Virus record (IMG/VR): IMGVR_UViG_3300023235_000012
Span: 62,001 to 126,000 of that record
Source of the DNA: a virus
DNA length: 64,000 nucleotides
Strand: one strand, 5' to 3'
Made by a program: the position numbers and the translations under genes. Shown here in pieces: positions 84 through 62,302 of the stretch. Position 1 is the first letter of the stretch; each line of letters starts with the position of its first letter. Under the pieces are notes generated by a model. The model saw only the letters and a list, made by a program, of their open reading frames with translations, had not been told where the DNA came from and did no database searches.

Positions 84-632
84 TTAAAAAACATCCATAA
101 TATCCAGAACATCGTTCATCTTGTCTGAATCATCGACGAAATAAACGCATTCGGGATAGCTAGTTTCTTTTCCGGTTATCATATCTTTCCTGCTAACCCA
201 TTCTGACGGGTTCCCTAATGGAACGGCAAGAAGCTGCTTCTTCTGGAGTCTAGGAGTAAACCAACTGGTGACGCTAGTATAGCTATTTGAAATCTGTACA
301 GGCTGAAATTTTGGAACATAGCTCTTGAACGGATTGAGAACATATGCTTCATAATCAAAGTTTGGTAATTCTTCGATGTCGACTAGTTCCAATTCACCCT
401 GAATAGCATCACCTGTCAAAATCCTCCAGTTCATCGGTACTTCGAGTTGATACTTTCCAATCGAAAGTTGAACAGCAGGATATTCATATTCGTTGAACAT
501 CGTCAGGTTAACAAAATAATAGTCAATATCATCCGGATTGGATGCATCCAAAATTGCACATTTCTGCTTACTTATCCCGTCAACTATTTGAGTGATATCA
601 AAAACGGTATTTTCTGGTGTTAAAATTCGGAT
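84..632 (-). CDS. Unknown protein with a probable ATC start codon
   Basis: Product not recognised. With only ATG/GTG/TTG allowed, the frame would begin at a TTG at 551 with no ribosome binding site, inside what reads as continuous coding sequence. The frame is open up to a TAG at 650-648, and the region between codes well (residues such as RILTPENTVFDI). Directly upstream is GAGGAG, and an ATC codon lies 6 bases after it (632-630), giving a 182-residue protein. No ATG, GTG or CTG exists between the stop and 552. The protein is acidic, has no signal peptide and ends with DVLDIMDVF. It has its own promoter at 667-695. The ATC start is an inference from the binding-site spacing; uvsX and the PAAR gene in this window show the same pattern. 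Confidence 0.7.
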   Translation of the reverse strand: MRILTPENTVFDITQIVDGISKQKCAILDASNPDDIDYYFVNLTMFNEYEYPAVQLSIGKYQLEVPMNWRILTGDAIQGELELVDIEELPNFDYEAYVLNPFKSYVPKFQPVQISNSYTSVTSWFTPRLQKKQLLAVPLGNPSEWVSRKDMITGKETSYPECVYFVDDSDKMNDVLDIMDVF

Positions 633-666
633 AGTGATCTCCTCTAACTAAACACAAATAATAACG

Positions 667-9409: not shown

Positions 9410-9572
9410 TATTTTTCTTTGCATCTTCGTTGAGAAGCTTAGCAACCCGTTCTGCAGCTGGAATGTTGTATTCTGCGACCGCAGATACCACGCGCCCCAC
9501 GAAACCATTTGCGATTTCGAATTCGATCTTTTCATTTTCTTCGCCGTAAACTATCAACTTATCCATTTTCAT
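9387..9572 (-). CDS. Small hypothetical protein
   Basis: 61 residues (59 if the second ATG at 9566, better spaced from AGAAGG, is used). Unrecognised, charged, no membrane segment. It is read from the promoter at 9599-9626 and its 3' end overlaps the promoter of the NAD operon. Confidence 0.6.
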   Translation of the reverse strand: MKMDKLIVYGEENEKIEFEIANGFVGRVVSAVAEYNIPAAERVAKLLNEDAKKNIDNQEKI

Positions 9573-19186: not shown

Positions 19187-19410
19187 TAATCCACGTCATA
19201 TTCGTCATCGGGATCTTCTTCTATCTTCGTTTTTTCTTCTATGGCTTCATCTAGAAAGCTACAGCGTCCATGAACTTCTTCAAAACGACTCACATCAATT
19301 CCACAATCCTCAAATATTTCAACAAATCGAAAAGCAGCTTCTTCAAGCTCTTTATCGGTAGTATGTGCCATAAAAAGCTGCCAAAGATCAATAAACAATT
19401 CTTCTTGCAT
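19183..19410 (-). CDS. Small acidic protein between uvsX and uvsY
   Basis: 75 residues, very acidic C-terminus (EEDPDDEYDVDY). Unrecognised. Its ATG overlaps the uvsX stop by one base and its stop overlaps uvsY, so the three are translationally coupled. A DNA mimic or a regulator of recombination would fit the acidity but is a guess. Confidence 0.7.
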   Translation of the reverse strand: MQEELFIDLWQLFMAHTTDKELEEAAFRFVEIFEDCGIDVSRFEEVHGRCSFLDEAIEEKTKIEEDPDDEYDVDY

Positions 19411-20489
19411 TATTCCTCCAAAACTTCACCGGTTTCCGGATCGATTTCTTCTGTTTGTTTAACTTCTGGTTCATCATATCCAGCCATCATTTTGTCAAAA
19501 ATTTCAGGTCCATAATTCTTGCGGAAATCTTTAAATTCAGTACCATCTGGACTATTGTACTTATACCGATTTCCTTCTTTGATAATCAGACCTTTCTTCT
19601 CAAACAAATCGAACAAACCCGAATATGGATCCATTCCTGTTTCCCAAGGAATTCTGATTTCAATCTTCTCAAAGGGTTTCGCATAACGAGACTTTCTAAC
19701 TTGTGTCGATGCGCGGATACCAGTAACGTTTGTTACCTTGTTTCCATTTGCATCTTCCTTTAGCTTTAATTTTTCAAGTGCAACGATGATTGAACTTGCA
19801 AATTCAATAATCTTCCCACCAGTGATAACTGAATCAGGTCTGAACATGTCCTGTGAATCATATGTATGATTTGTGACCACCAATCCAATGTTCTCCGAGC
19901 CGATAAGAGCAGTGACATTCTTTACCAATGATCCAAGCTGTTTAGCTTTTCGACCCATATCACCTTTCATATCACCTTTCTGAAATTGATCCTGATCGGT
20001 CGGTGTTAATAGCATCCCAATAGAATCAACGACGAAGAGTAGCATTGGTCGATCTTCAAGTGGAAGATTGCCATATTCTCCCTTGTACTCTTTGATAAAA
20101 TCATTGATGAACTTGGCGACATCATCGATAAAACTAGCATTAATCTTCATGATTTTATCAGGACTAGTATCGACTCCTAGTTTTGTAAGCCATTCTTCAT
20201 CTAGAGCGTTTTCACTATCAATGATTACCGGGAAGATGCCTTTCTTTTGTGCATCTTTTACCAAATTTGCTGAGACGATATACGACTTTCCTGAACCCGA
20301 TGATCCGGCAAACATTGTCATCTTTCCTTCAAGAGGAACACCCCCATCCCATCTTCCAGAAATCAGAAAATTAAGGGCATAACTTCCGGTATCTAGCCAG
20401 GTTTTTGGATCATTAAAACCTTCACTAATTCCACCGATCCCCTTAGTTACTGACTTGCGAAATTTTGAAATATCAACTGGTTTTGTGAT
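19410..20489 (-). CDS. uvsX: UvsX RecA-like recombinase, ATC start
   Basis: 359 residues, RecA-fold strand-exchange protein. Walker A is GSSGSGKS near 62-69; Walker B is LLFVVDS; the L2-like region and TGEVLEE C-terminus follow. The first ATG of the frame (20321) lies at the P-loop, which would delete the N-terminal 56 residues needed for filament formation. Those residues are coded upstream (VDISKFRKSVTKGIGGIS ...). AAGGAGG lies 5 bases before an ATC at 20489, and the frame upstream of it holds no ATG, GTG or TTG before a TAA. So translation must begin at ATC (or the neighbouring ATA). Confidence 0.93.
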   Translation of the reverse strand: MTKPVDISKFRKSVTKGIGGISEGFNDPKTWLDTGSYALNFLISGRWDGGVPLEGKMTMFAGSSGSGKSYIVSANLVKDAQKKGIFPVIIDSENALDEEWLTKLGVDTSPDKIMKINASFIDDVAKFINDFIKEYKGEYGNLPLEDRPMLLFVVDSIGMLLTPTDQDQFQKGDMKGDMGRKAKQLGSLVKNVTALIGSENIGLVVTNHTYDSQDMFRPDSVITGGKIIEFASSIIVALEKLKLKEDANGNKVTNVTGIRASTQVRKSRYAKPFEKIEIRIPWETGMDPYSGLFDLFEKKGLIIKEGNRYKYNSPDGTEFKDFRKNYGPEIFDKMMAGYDEPEVKQTEEIDPETGEVLEE

Positions 20490-20532
20490 TATAACCTCCT
20501 TCTGTCTATTGTCAGACAGGTATTACGATAAA

Positions 20533-51982: not shown

Positions 51983-52786
51983 TTACTTCGGACGTGTACA
52001 GTAATCACTTGGGAACGCTTCCGCACCCTGTATTGATCTCCGCTGTTTTTTGAGAAAAACATCAACACCGCGGGCCTTCAGACCTTTCAAGGTGTCGTAG
52101 TATATTACAACGTCTTCGACATGATCTCCCTTTTCAAACTCTTCTCGAACCGTGGAAAAGTTAGTGTCCTTTCCCCAACCAGTTCCGAGCTCTTTTGGTT
52201 GTTGTCGTGTATCGGCCATTGAAAAATTATCCGCTGGAGTAAGTACAAAGCTCGAAAAAGTTCCACTATCCGAACCACTTTCCCAATGAAATGGACTTTT
52301 CCTCCACAACGGCACATCATCAAATGGCAATGGAGGAAAATTCCAAGGTACTGGGTAATCAGGAACCTTTGGGATCTTTGGGATTATGATCGGTTGCTTT
52401 TCATCAAAGATTCTAACCCCAATCACACCGTTATTTTTATCACCATGACCCATCTTCTGTGCATAGCTTTCCTCTTTCTTCGAAAGACTGAAGTAGAATT
52501 TCGCAGCAGTCTGCTCATTCTGAAGCCAACCAGGAATAGAGATCGATTCAAACGCATCGATAATAAAACCTTTGGAGCTATCGCCTGCAAGCTCACCGTC
52601 GATGGTTGAAAGGCCATCCACCGAAGTAATACATAGCCTTCGTTTATTTGATCTATTCTTGATGGAGATCTCAAAATTAGAACCGTGTCTTCCTTCAATG
52701 AAGGTAAGGCCTTCGTGCTTAAATTCTTGGATACTATTTCCACGAACAAGGATTGTGATTTCTGAATTAACTGTCTTCATTATCAT
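51983..52786 (-). CDS. Hypothetical partner of the VWA protein
   Basis: 267 residues. N-terminal beta-rich part, a proline-rich linker (IPKIPKVPDYPVPWNFPPLP) near 140-160, C-terminal mixed region. Not recognised. Overlaps the VWA gene by 20 bases, so the two are coexpressed and may form a complex, as in VWA-based bacterial systems. Confidence 0.65.
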   Translation of the reverse strand: MIMKTVNSEITILVRGNSIQEFKHEGLTFIEGRHGSNFEISIKNRSNKRRLCITSVDGLSTIDGELAGDSSKGFIIDAFESISIPGWLQNEQTAAKFYFSLSKKEESYAQKMGHGDKNNGVIGVRIFDEKQPIIIPKIPKVPDYPVPWNFPPLPFDDVPLWRKSPFHWESGSDSGTFSSFVLTPADNFSMADTRQQPKELGTGWGKDTNFSTVREEFEKGDHVEDVVIYYDTLKGLKARGVDVFLKKQRRSIQGAEAFPSDYCTRPK

Positions 52787-55966: not shown

Positions 55967-57343
55967 TCAACTCCAATGATGGTCAAATTCTTTCTGAATA
56001 AATGGATACATCTCTAATCCATTTCTTTTGACGATTTTGTAAAACTCTTTAATGATGAATTTCGCCCTTGGATGTTTCTTTACCAATTCCCAGATCTTAT
56101 CGAAGTGCTTGAGATCATCTGGGTTTGTTCCTTTACCGAACATTAATTCAGCCGCTTGTTTGGGATCTTGAATGGTTTCATATTCTTGATCATTAAGGTC
56201 TGGATGTTCCCATTTTTCCATATCTCTGACACCAGTGAGGTTTCCAGTGTATGGAACTTTCTTTCCTTTCTTTTTCTGCTGGAATTGCTTGATCATCCCC
56301 CGGCCCCTACCATACTCGTAACCTACTCTTGCTACGATATCACCGTTATCATCGAGTTTCAGATTTCCTGTGTTTTGGATGATAGCTTGTATCAAATTTC
56401 CTCTATGGGCACCAGAAACCTTGGAAGGAACTCCGCCCATCGCCCATTTCAACCATTTAGCATCTCCAGTGATGAAATCGACCTGTACTCTATTAGGTTC
56501 TTCACCAACGATAGGGATAGCTGCTTTTGCTAACTTCTTTACGTGCTGGAACTGAACGTTATCTTCGCCTAGAGATTTCATCAGATTATTGTAGAGATCG
56601 TCTAGATTGGTGTCTGGAGGGACAATGACATCAATATCACCCGAAACTGGTTTTAATCCTGCAGATCCAAGCATGTGATTCTTTAACCATTCAAACGGGA
56701 TCCCGCTGAATTTTGCCACATTCTTCAACGTAGGTACAATATTTTCTTTCTTGATTCCAGTCGTTCCAGGGAAGGCCATGCCACCTTCGTTGAGGTCTCT
56801 TTTGTTTTCAAAATAGATAAAATAATCTACTGTTGCGTCATCTTTGATCTGATTTACTGTTTCTTTTGATTTTTCTACTGTTCTTTCTATTTTGTATTCT
56901 TGTTCAGGTGGAATTCCTCTCCCACCCGAAGAAATTCGATCTGCATTTTGTTTTAGAGCTTGTTCTAATGAGACATCAACATAAAAAAGAACAGTGGTAA
57001 ATCCACGTTTCTTTGCTGCTTCAAATCCTTTCAGGATAGGTCCTGGATTCTGTCCCACTTGATGTCGGACAAATGATTGACCTCTCAGAATAAATTCTGC
57101 TTGTCTTCGTTCTGCTTCTGCACGAGATTTTCCAGTCAATTTAGAATCAAATTCACCTAGTGATAATTCTTGATTGATTAGATCAGTATCAATTGATTTT
57201 AATTTCCCAAGAAATTGATCTTGTACCCATGATTTACCGGCTCCTATTGGTCCCGCCATCATAATAAAAACAGGCCCTTCAATCTTTTTTATTTCATGTG
57301 GAGAAATTTTCTTTGATTCTACAAGCAACTCTTTAATCAACAT
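55967..57343 (-). CDS. P-loop kinase fused to a nucleotidyltransferase, capsid-targeting-like N-terminus
   Basis: 458 residues from the ATG at 57343, which has AAGGAG 10 bases upstream. N-terminus MLIKELLVES fits the capsid-targeting pattern with L-V-E. The first domain has GPIGAGKS and resembles Zeta-toxin/polynucleotide kinase P-loop proteins; the second has GSAGLKPVSGDIDV and VQVDF, the signature of a pol-beta-like nucleotidyltransferase. It overlaps the following gene's stop by 11 bases. A role in modifying a host nucleic acid or nucleotide is inferred. Confidence 0.7.
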   Translation of the reverse strand: MLIKELLVESKKISPHEIKKIEGPVFIMMAGPIGAGKSWVQDQFLGKLKSIDTDLINQELSLGEFDSKLTGKSRAEAERRQAEFILRGQSFVRHQVGQNPGPILKGFEAAKKRGFTTVLFYVDVSLEQALKQNADRISSGGRGIPPEQEYKIERTVEKSKETVNQIKDDATVDYFIYFENKRDLNEGGMAFPGTTGIKKENIVPTLKNVAKFSGIPFEWLKNHMLGSAGLKPVSGDIDVIVPPDTNLDDLYNNLMKSLGEDNVQFQHVKKLAKAAIPIVGEEPNRVQVDFITGDAKWLKWAMGGVPSKVSGAHRGNLIQAIIQNTGNLKLDDNGDIVARVGYEYGRGRGMIKQFQQKKKGKKVPYTGNLTGVRDMEKWEHPDLNDQEYETIQDPKQAAELMFGKGTNPDDLKHFDKIWELVKKHPRAKFIIKEFYKIVKRNGLEMYPFIQKEFDHHWS

Positions 57344-58910
57344 ATTTCTGAAGCTCCTTGAAGAATTTATGAACACCCGGCGGGGTCAATTTCTTAAACT
57401 CCTCTTCATTTTCAGATTCTATTGCTTGGAATGTCCTAGTGGCAGAAACATTTTCTGCCGAATCCATATCTCGCTTAACTTCGATGACCTCTACGTTCGG
57501 TGATCTCTTCAATTGATCCTTATAAGCATCTACTCGATCAGATCCAGCAATGACTGCGTTGATCATTCTTTTTGATTTGTTAAGAGCTGTCAAAATATTT
57601 CCAGTGCTGACTTCCATAACATCAACTCCAGGAAAAACTGATTGTACCATCTTTTTTCTCAATTCAAATGGTACTTTAGTATCTTTTCCAGTGACCAATG
57701 CTACCACAACATTATTTGCTACATCTAATCCTTGTTGAATGGCACCAGCGTGTGCTGTTGTCAATACTCTCATTTTTCCAATAAACAGAGCATTCTTATT
57801 TTCCGGCATCGATCTGACCACCAATTCTCGACCAGTCAAATAAACATCGTCTTGGATTTGATGTTGATCTTTTTTTGGATGGTCAGGAAGAATGTCCTCA
57901 TCAGCTTTATAAACTACCGCACTAAATTGTTTAAGTTTTTGGTTTATTGATCCATCTTTAAGTTTTCCAGCTATTTTCTTAGCGAGAGAATTTACTTCTG
58001 CCCAATATTGATTTTCTTGTTCTTCATCATCCGCTTTCCACTTCATCTTCTTCTGCATGCGAACTTCTTTATCATGCTGATCAGTCTGTAGGATCTTGAA
58101 GAAGTTTCCATCATCGCTTAATAAGACTACTCCTTCTTCTTTACCGCCGAATGGGGATTGAACAGATCGGAACATTTCTTTGATAGCCTCAAATGTTTGA
58201 AGCCAATCCTGGAAGTCCATTTGATCCTTATGTTGTTCATAAGCATTTAATAGTTCTTCTGATTCAATTCCTTTTCTAATCTCAGAATGACTATTAAGCT
58301 TTCCTTTGAATATTTGAGGTGGTGTCATCATAGATAGCGCTGCTGCGTATTCATCAACCCGGTCTTGATTGAATCCTTGTGGAGCGGTTCGGATCATCCC
58401 ACCTTCTATCACTGCTTTCGAAGGAGCGTAAGCCAGAAGGACCATTGCATGATATTTTTCATAGTCTCTAGTGGTCGTCGGCTTGTTCATAATAAACTCA
58501 ACGAACATCTCTGTCTCTTCTGGAATCATCTTGAGATTTTTATGATTTTCTTCCAGATGATCATGAACCAAAGCGTATTGGCTAACAGAAGTCGATTTTG
58601 TCTTGATCTTTTCTCGATCAATGGTTTCAAAATCCTCTGGGAACATGATCCGGTTCTTATAAGCTACTACCCAGTTTTTACTGTAGTCATTTGGATCATA
58701 AGGTTGATTGTTTCTCCAAAGTGTTAATTTTACGCCATCGAATTTTTGTGTGACGGTGACGTCTAATGACAATAATTTTTGGATTTTTGCAGGAACAGGA
58801 TTTTTCTTAGAGTCAGCAACTGCCTTGTCGACATTGGTGATACTTATGTCCAACATGTCGCCGCCGGCTTCTCTAAGCTGCAGGCTCTCTGTTAATTCTC
58901 TAATCTTCAT
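57333..58910 (-). CDS. Ligase-like adenylyltransferase fused to an NMNAT-like domain
   Basis: 525 residues, N-terminus MKIRELTESL (L-T-E). Residues about 50-290 look like a nucleic-acid ligase core: motif I QKFDGVK with Lys56, motif IIIa-like EMFVEF, motif IV EEGVVLL, and motif V-like FKILQ. The C-terminal 160 residues are NMNAT-like: FIGKMRVLTTAHAGA replaces the usual HxGH by HxGA, and SATRTF matches the second motif. So one half may ligate or cap RNA while the other is a catalytically altered adenylyltransferase. Central gene of the three-gene cassette. Confidence 0.75.
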   Translation of the reverse strand: MKIRELTESLQLREAGGDMLDISITNVDKAVADSKKNPVPAKIQKLLSLDVTVTQKFDGVKLTLWRNNQPYDPNDYSKNWVVAYKNRIMFPEDFETIDREKIKTKSTSVSQYALVHDHLEENHKNLKMIPEETEMFVEFIMNKPTTTRDYEKYHAMVLLAYAPSKAVIEGGMIRTAPQGFNQDRVDEYAAALSMMTPPQIFKGKLNSHSEIRKGIESEELLNAYEQHKDQMDFQDWLQTFEAIKEMFRSVQSPFGGKEEGVVLLSDDGNFFKILQTDQHDKEVRMQKKMKWKADDEEQENQYWAEVNSLAKKIAGKLKDGSINQKLKQFSAVVYKADEDILPDHPKKDQHQIQDDVYLTGRELVVRSMPENKNALFIGKMRVLTTAHAGAIQQGLDVANNVVVALVTGKDTKVPFELRKKMVQSVFPGVDVMEVSTGNILTALNKSKRMINAVIAGSDRVDAYKDQLKRSPNVEVIEVKRDMDSAENVSATRTFQAIESENEEEFKKLTPPGVHKFFKELQKYVD

Positions 58911-61246: not shown

Positions 61247-61969
61247 TCAGGCATAATGTAATGTAAGACCGCCACTATAATCGTTATTGATCATCGTCAA
61301 GACTTGTCTTCGTTGTGATCCGCTAGCTCCGTTGAAACTGACATGAAGCCAGATGTTATTTCCGTGTTCAAGAATAAACTGATCAAACAGGAGGTTATCT
61401 CGACAAAAATTTGCTCTTCTCAAATATTCTTGATTTGAGATCCCAGGCCATTGAACGTCCGCTGCCATTCCTCTTTCATGTTGACTTTTACCACCTGTTC
61501 CAGTTCTGAATCCAGAGTTAATCCTGAATCCTGGAAAAGCAGACCACAATGGCTCTAAGCAATTTTCACATAAAGACTTTAGATTACATATCATTTCAAG
61601 ATCGGTGAAACCATGCTGTGCTTGAATTGAATGAGAGAAGAATGCCCCAAGTGATAGATCTCTGACAGTGAAATTTCGAGATAACGAAAAACTATAATCA
61701 ACTTCCGTAAAATCACCACAAGAAGTAATCTCTGGTGAGATTGAAGATGTAGGCTCAGTTAGATCCGTCGGGCCAGAACTCGTAGTTGGTGGGTTATTCA
61801 ATGGATACGATTCAGGAATCTGGTCTTTGGTAACCTCTTCATCAAATGGTGCTTCTCTTCCTGCGACGGAAATCAGCTTTGCTGCTGCTTGTGGAGAGTA
61901 ACTATTGATAACTCCTACTGGAATATTTCCAGTATATGATGTCGATGAACAAGATGGATTGATTGACAT
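61247..61969 (-). CDS. M15-type peptidase domain protein (tail-associated)
   Basis: 240 residues from the ATG at 61969, one base after the PAAR stop. The longer frame to 62023 reads through the PAAR gene. The C-terminal 110 residues contain SQHERGMAADVQ (zinc His and Asp) and WLHVSF (last His), typical of the D-Ala-D-Ala carboxypeptidase (M15) fold. In this neighbourhood it may digest peptidoglycan cross-bridges during DNA entry. N-terminal 120 residues are low-complexity, Ser/Thr-rich, perhaps a linker. Confidence 0.8.
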   Translation of the reverse strand: MSINPSCSSTSYTGNIPVGVINSYSPQAAAKLISVAGREAPFDEEVTKDQIPESYPLNNPPTTSSGPTDLTEPTSSISPEITSCGDFTEVDYSFSLSRNFTVRDLSLGAFFSHSIQAQHGFTDLEMICNLKSLCENCLEPLWSAFPGFRINSGFRTGTGGKSQHERGMAADVQWPGISNQEYLRRANFCRDNLLFDQFILEHGNNIWLHVSFNGASGSQRRQVLTMINNDYSGGLTLHYA

Positions 61970-61970
61970 T

Positions 61971-62255
61971 TTACCCCGCGAAGACGTTTCCTGATCCTGT
62001 TGCGCAGAATGACCCGCATGCAATAGGATCGCCTATTCTAGCTAATTGAAGACCGTTTACCATAACGATAGGCGATCCTGCCGCCAGATTTGAGTCATGA
62101 CACGGAGGTGGACAGCAATGGGTCACCCAGTGATCTCCTAGTCGGTGTGCTGGGATTCCATTGACAAAAACATTCGAAGATCCTTGGTCGTTTGGGCGTG
62201 GTGGCCAACAATCGTGGCCGCTGCAAATATCTCCTAGTCTGACTACTGCTGGAAT
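61971..62255 (-). CDS. PAAR spike-tip protein, ATT start
   Basis: 94 residues. The PAAR signatures are clear: RLGDICSGHD, NVFVNGIPAHRLGD, WVTHCC and the C-terminal ARIGDPIACGS. PAAR proteins cap the baseplate spike. No ATG, GTG or TTG lies before the first conserved residues; AAGGAGG ends 6 bases before an ATT at 62255, giving M-P-A-V-V, which is just where PAAR proteins begin. Upstream in this frame are only ATA, TAT, CTA, TTA, AGG, AGG, TGT, ATC down to a TAA. So the start is ATT (or ATC). Confidence 0.9.
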   Translation of the reverse strand: MPAVVRLGDICSGHDCWPPRPNDQGSSNVFVNGIPAHRLGDHWVTHCCPPPCHDSNLAAGSPIVMVNGLQLARIGDPIACGSFCATGSGNVFAG

Positions 62256-62302
62256 GATACACCTCCTTAATAGATATATTTATTATTCCAGCATAGAGGA
62301 TA

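Follow-up and report, generated by a model that had tools for sequence, protein, structure and literature searches.

The window analysed here, a 64,000-nucleotide stretch comprising bases 62001-126000 of a 137-kb contig, carries a PAAR spike-tip gene on the minus strand (window positions 62255..61971; 94 codons plus stop, from ATT to TAA). The frame is uninterrupted from the ATT through to the TAA at 61971, and the product matches PF05488 in Pfam (E 1e-13, 51.7 bits against a curated cut-off of 27) as well as PHROG 281 (E 1.5e-33), which bears out the sequence-only reading that a complete PAAR protein starts at this ATT. Alignment with the solved tips 4JIV and 4JIW revealed His/His/His/Cys at four of four positions, with the same residues conserved in relatives, and we take these positions to have a zinc role in PAAR tips. 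On these grounds the gene is intact and its product a predicted spike tip of the PAAR kind, for which T4 gp5.4 and others have been solved (4JIV, 4KU0, 5IV5). Its neighbours include a gene of the peptidase/endolysin type and a DUF7217 gene, the latter with PHROG matches that are weak and tape-measure-like.

Read along the minus strand from 62285, the start region is TAA TAA ATA TAT CTA TTA AGG AGG TGT ATC ATT CCA GCA GTA GTC AGA ... GGG TAA, with the putative ATT (AUU) initiation codon at 62253..62255. None of the eight codons between the prior in-frame stop and the ATT is ATG, GTG or TTG, in agreement with the earlier claim that the frame has no conventional upstream start, and the earliest canonical start in frame is a GTG (62126) that lies 43 codons into the domain, at codon 44. 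Gene finders confined to canonical starts would thus truncate or miss the gene, as had been anticipated. The AAGGAGG reported six bases before the ATT has the spacing described, and the site proved even stronger than that motif implies, with pairing that extends to a ten-base Shine-Dalgarno sequence, TAAGGAGGTG (62260..62269, minus strand), complementary to the anti-Shine-Dalgarno at 10 of 10 positions and with its GGAGG core 6 nt from the ATT. When duplex energies with the anti-Shine-Dalgarno were computed for the 141 canonical gene starts on the contig (median -6.2 kcal/mol), the PAAR site, at -16.0 kcal/mol, was stronger than every one of them (rank 1 of 142), and TAAGGAGGTG occurs only once in the contig.

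Relatives of the PAAR gene place the start at the same column. A scan of IMG/VR revealed 37 of them (48-76% identity), in 35 of which the column of the ATT holds ATG, the other two having ATG a few codons away, so that the comparison proposed earlier as a check on ATT conservation returned the opposite, a codon that is not conserved. Neither blastn against the phage collection nor a search of IMG/VR with a degenerate DNA pattern found close relatives of the locus. Because the relatives' ATG falls on the same column, the ATT stands, as judged from the alignment, at the correct start codon position and is a derived state in this phage. Conservation of the frame begins at codon 2, nucleotide changes being mostly third-position, and together with the top-ranked Shine-Dalgarno site this argues that the ATT start is not a product of chance. 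The same data bear on translation from the internal GTG at 62126, the start that automatic annotation would give. That codon is present, but its use would remove the first half of the 94-aa PAAR domain, conserved His residues included, and the amino acids ahead of it are at least as conserved as the remainder; this conservation and the third-position changes therefore fit a start at the ATT and do not fit one at the GTG, which we regard as hardly credible.

Extending the analysis to every open frame on the 137-kb contig, by codon usage and strong ribosome sites, revealed two more homology-supported genes that lack a canonical start, and all three genes have AUY (AUU or AUC) at the homologous column. 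The first is a uvsX/RecA-like recombinase gene (19410..20489, minus strand), which opens with ATC at 20489-20487, has no canonical start before codon 57 and appears in the list of open reading frames in a version 56 residues short. Its start region reads AGAAGGAGGTTATA ATC ACA AAA CCA GTT GAT, and its relatives (MTKPVDISKFRKS...), which read ATG ACA AAA CCA or similar, have ATG at the column of the ATC. The second is a conserved GAP32_278-family gene with no function assigned (84..632, minus strand), whose ATC at 632-630 within TTAGAGGAGATCACT ATC CGA ATT TTA ACA CCA shares its column with an ATG in 20 other IMG/VR loci, ATG being the codon there in nearly all other loci found. A conserved ATC was not seen among the relatives of either gene, save for a second assembly of the same phage and an ATT in a Vibrio phage. 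Other apparent orphan starts (L040:14356, opposite-strand hits, Atu_ph07 185,197 and Phosso 102.5-103.7 kb) were discarded, as they either had a canonical start or lay inside other annotated genes.

Both additional genes also possess strong ribosome sites. The Shine-Dalgarno of uvsX, AAGGAGGT (20494..20501, minus strand; -12.9 kcal/mol), is exceeded by one of the 141 canonical starts and is the third strongest on the contig, and the GAGGAG ahead of the GAP32_278-family gene (639..644, minus strand; -9.7 kcal/mol) would rank eighth against the canonical starts, seven of which are stronger. Taken together, the three AUY genes hold ranks 1, 3 and 10 of 144. The rank-sum P is about 7.5e-5, a somewhat flattering figure, since the strength of their Shine-Dalgarno sites was part of the reason for listing uvsX and the third gene.

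The ATG in relatives, which the sequence-only reading had named together with a sequence error as what would count against it, raises the possibility that the PAAR ATT is a sequencing or assembly artefact and that the true codon is ATG. The ATT is covered by a single assembly, which leaves room for such an error, but two contigs from an independent dataset (3300022842) represent 18,311 nt of the same phage with 8 mismatches and include the starts of uvsX and of the third gene. The ATC codons of uvsX (L045/L318) and of the GAP32_278-family gene (L125/L284) are unchanged there, and this second metagenome assembly rules out an assembly error at either codon. Since the assemblies agree so closely, an error exactly on the PAAR start codon is unlikely, and the strongest Shine-Dalgarno of the contig at this gene is what one would expect where a weak codon is being offset. 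The relatives' ATG was thus found, and with two further AUY starts identical in both assemblies we consider the artefact very improbable.

A second question is how the ATT arose. The start codon lies in a hairpin (62247..62293, minus strand) whose arms, UGCUGGAAU and AUUCCAGCA (62285-62293 and 62247-62255), form a perfect 9-bp stem with the AUU in its 3' arm, and an inner 8-bp helix contains part of the Shine-Dalgarno. The fold has an energy of -17.3 kcal/mol (z -2.5, a value equalled or bettered in 4 of 200 shuffles) and is the second most stable among 141 start regions. Because its z drops to -0.8 when a longer stretch is folded, the contig contains 81 inverted repeats with arms of this length, and the repeat is absent from the PAAR relatives, we treat the hairpin as suggestive only; zero matches to Rfam elements were found in the window. 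AUU completes the stem and AUG would leave one mismatch, so that a templated mutation could be the origin of the ATT. The start codon may have been lost by recent mutation, possibly through quasi-palindrome correction of ATG to ATT templated by UGCUGGAAU/AUUCCAGCA, leaving a gene now poorly expressed and either decaying or dispensable. The perfect repeat and its absence from the relatives fit such a loss, but the frame is intact with every conserved His and Cys present, the ten-base Shine-Dalgarno has been kept, and no comparable repeat accompanies the AUC of uvsX or of the third gene. A mutational origin is moreover compatible with present function, and loss of the start seems to us rather unlikely.

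The reading that we favour, at a probability of roughly 0.8, is that PAAR, uvsX and the GAP32_278-family gene are genuinely initiated at AUU or AUC and rescued by Shine-Dalgarno pairing, which at PAAR is a perfect ten bases, with an output that is probably attenuated and sensitive to IF3, a host factor that rejects AUU and AUC starts. Under this mechanism the strong Shine-Dalgarno would hold the 30S subunit at the AUY start, where the initiator fMet-tRNA could pair with AUU or AUC with its third position mismatched, and a minority of these complexes would escape IF3 rejection, giving a yield below that of AUG. The PAAR protein would then begin fMet-Pro-Ala, made by the ordinary initiator fMet-tRNA at AUU; an initiator tRNA of the phage's own with an altered anticodon was considered and set aside, as the 137-kb contig holds zero tRNA genes. 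We infer that AUU and AUC are the codons used, that yield is lowered and that IF3 is relevant. Against this, the nearest relatives all have ATG, so the AUY codons are particular to this lineage and might have arisen by recent mutation at a mild cost.

A lowered yield may be harmless for PAAR if one tip is needed per virion, and the sequence-only reading had gone further, proposing that a weak start behind a strong site sets PAAR stoichiometry against the peptidase. The weak codon and the exceptional Shine-Dalgarno were both confirmed, and the peptidase/endolysin-like gene (61247..61969, minus strand; PHROG 894, with an SQHERGMAADV motif) does begin one base after the PAAR stop, with its ATG at 61969, one base past the TAA; viral relatives of this gene were not found by the scan as used. 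The adjacency of the two genes and the single-copy PAAR tip of T4 would suit a weak start adapted to tune PAAR copy number to that of the peptidase. The proposed balance nevertheless fares poorly, as relatives that make the same low-copy protein use ATG, and the same kind of start, AUC, is found at uvsX, whose T4 counterpart is produced abundantly. The peptidase itself has a weak Shine-Dalgarno (GCGGGGTAAAATG), and because this weak site stands one base past the PAAR stop, its translation is probably coupled to PAAR rather than balanced against it. We thus regard the copy-number adaptation as unlikely.

The contig also encodes translation factors of its own. An IF3 gene with a TTG start lies on the minus strand at contig 52.2-52.7 kb (L042:12212-12703) and matches both domains of the factor (PF00707, 3.4e-25; PF05198, 8.7e-23), and a gene for ribosomal protein S21 follows directly, in tandem (contig 52008-52166, minus strand). 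Aligned with E. coli IF3, the phage protein is missing the N-terminal tail and part of an N-domain hairpin, and in its C-domain several basic positions differ (R112K, R116E, R147K), with R99 and RFRGRE kept. The presence of IF3 and S21 in huge phages is already known (PMC7162821, PMC7824862), and our literature search found no paper tying phage IF3 or S21 to non-canonical phage starts. Under genuine AUY initiation, how much of the three products is made could depend on the way host and phage IF3 are balanced on the ribosome. A stronger form, in which the IF3-S21 pair retunes start selection on captured ribosomes and the PAAR, uvsX and GAP32_278-family genes form a regulon set by the phage:host IF3 ratio, is one that we entertain tentatively and hold to be doubtful; if true, such a regulon would give a jumbo phage a switch that acts at the level of translation. 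The IF3 and S21 of huge phages have so far been without a clear target, and AUY starts, being what IF3 polices, make the function of phage IF3 testable.

Comparison with other phages gave one further case. The jumbo phages RaK2, GAP32, 121Q and Vibrio phage 2.275.O resemble the present phage in having homologous uvsX, GAP32_278-family and IF3 genes; the present contig is a 137-kb linear fragment, and the jumbo-phage criterion is a genome above 200 kb. In a survey of eight phages totalling about 2.5 Mb, of which five encode IF3 and three do not, the only credible AUY start was in Vibrio phage 2.275.O, so that AUY starts distinguish the present phage from these four save for this single instance. 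The IF3-encoding phages GAP32, RaK2, Atu_ph07 and Phosso yielded no credible AUY starts in the same survey. A general rule of AUY starts in IF3-encoding phages was not supported, with one case among the five others that encode the factor. Three AUY starts on one contig are unusual against the comparison phages, and an association with phage IF3 is not established.

The Vibrio case concerns the homologue of our third gene (about 40% protein identity), NVP2275O_010, which reads AACAAGGAGGATAGGGTT ATT TTA ATC ATT ACC CCT GAA, with the ATT behind AAGGAGG (L127:598-640; MG592671.1, about 9510-9549). The record starts the gene at an ATG 12 codons later, which would lose the family-invariant residues T5, P6, E7 and F11, and we conclude that the annotation is probably 12 codons too short, the ATT being the likely start. 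A GTT codon directly ahead of the ATT is a less likely start because it is the ATT that aligns with the relatives' ATG. Gene finders limited to ATG, GTG and TTG thus overlook or shorten genuine phage genes, among them those for a spike tip and a recombinase, and such gene finding is probably also why the annotated Vibrio gene is truncated.

Rare starts of this kind have precedents, chiefly in bacteria. In E. coli, infC and pcnB start with AUU, infC has ATC in Streptomyces, and IF3 discriminates against the rare AUU and AUC (PMC5472188); the pcnB start is cited in PMC13009471. These genes share a rare AUU or AUC start with ours, but they are chromosomal housekeeping genes, infC being autoregulatory, whereas ours comprise a recombinase gene, a structural gene and one with no assigned function, and the IF3 gene of our phage starts at TTG, unlike the AUU of E. 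coli infC. Closer in architecture are S. aureus cvfC1 (AUU) and ccpN (AUA), which likewise combine a non-canonical AUN start with a very strong extended Shine-Dalgarno and give about 10% of the AUG yield (PMC13009471), and Streptomyces sigR, a GTC start with the near-perfect site AGGAGGTG that is IF3-repressed and was missed by annotation (PMC5472188). These are bacterial genes, sigR being a regulator with GTC rather than AUU or AUC, and the starts of cvfC1 and ccpN are conserved across Staphylococci, whereas ours are lineage-specific and in a phage. Conservation of the start codon among close homologues, as in sigR and cvfC1, is not strictly required and is not seen for the present genes, where AUY recurs only in the one Vibrio homologue of the third gene and, for uvsX and that gene, within the population of the present phage itself. 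Among phages, T4 gene 26' is likewise a tail baseplate gene with an ATT start, but its AUU is an internal alternative start within gene 26, whereas the entire PAAR gene has AUU as its sole start. Strong sites ahead of AUU starts are already known (infC, pcnB, cvfC1, T4 26'), and several such starts in one IF3-encoding phage look new. Elsewhere in the window, positions 57333-58910 on the minus strand encode a 525-aa protein that matches PHROG 27149 (unknown) and has a weak C-terminal match to citrate lyase ligase (nucleotidyltransferase-like).
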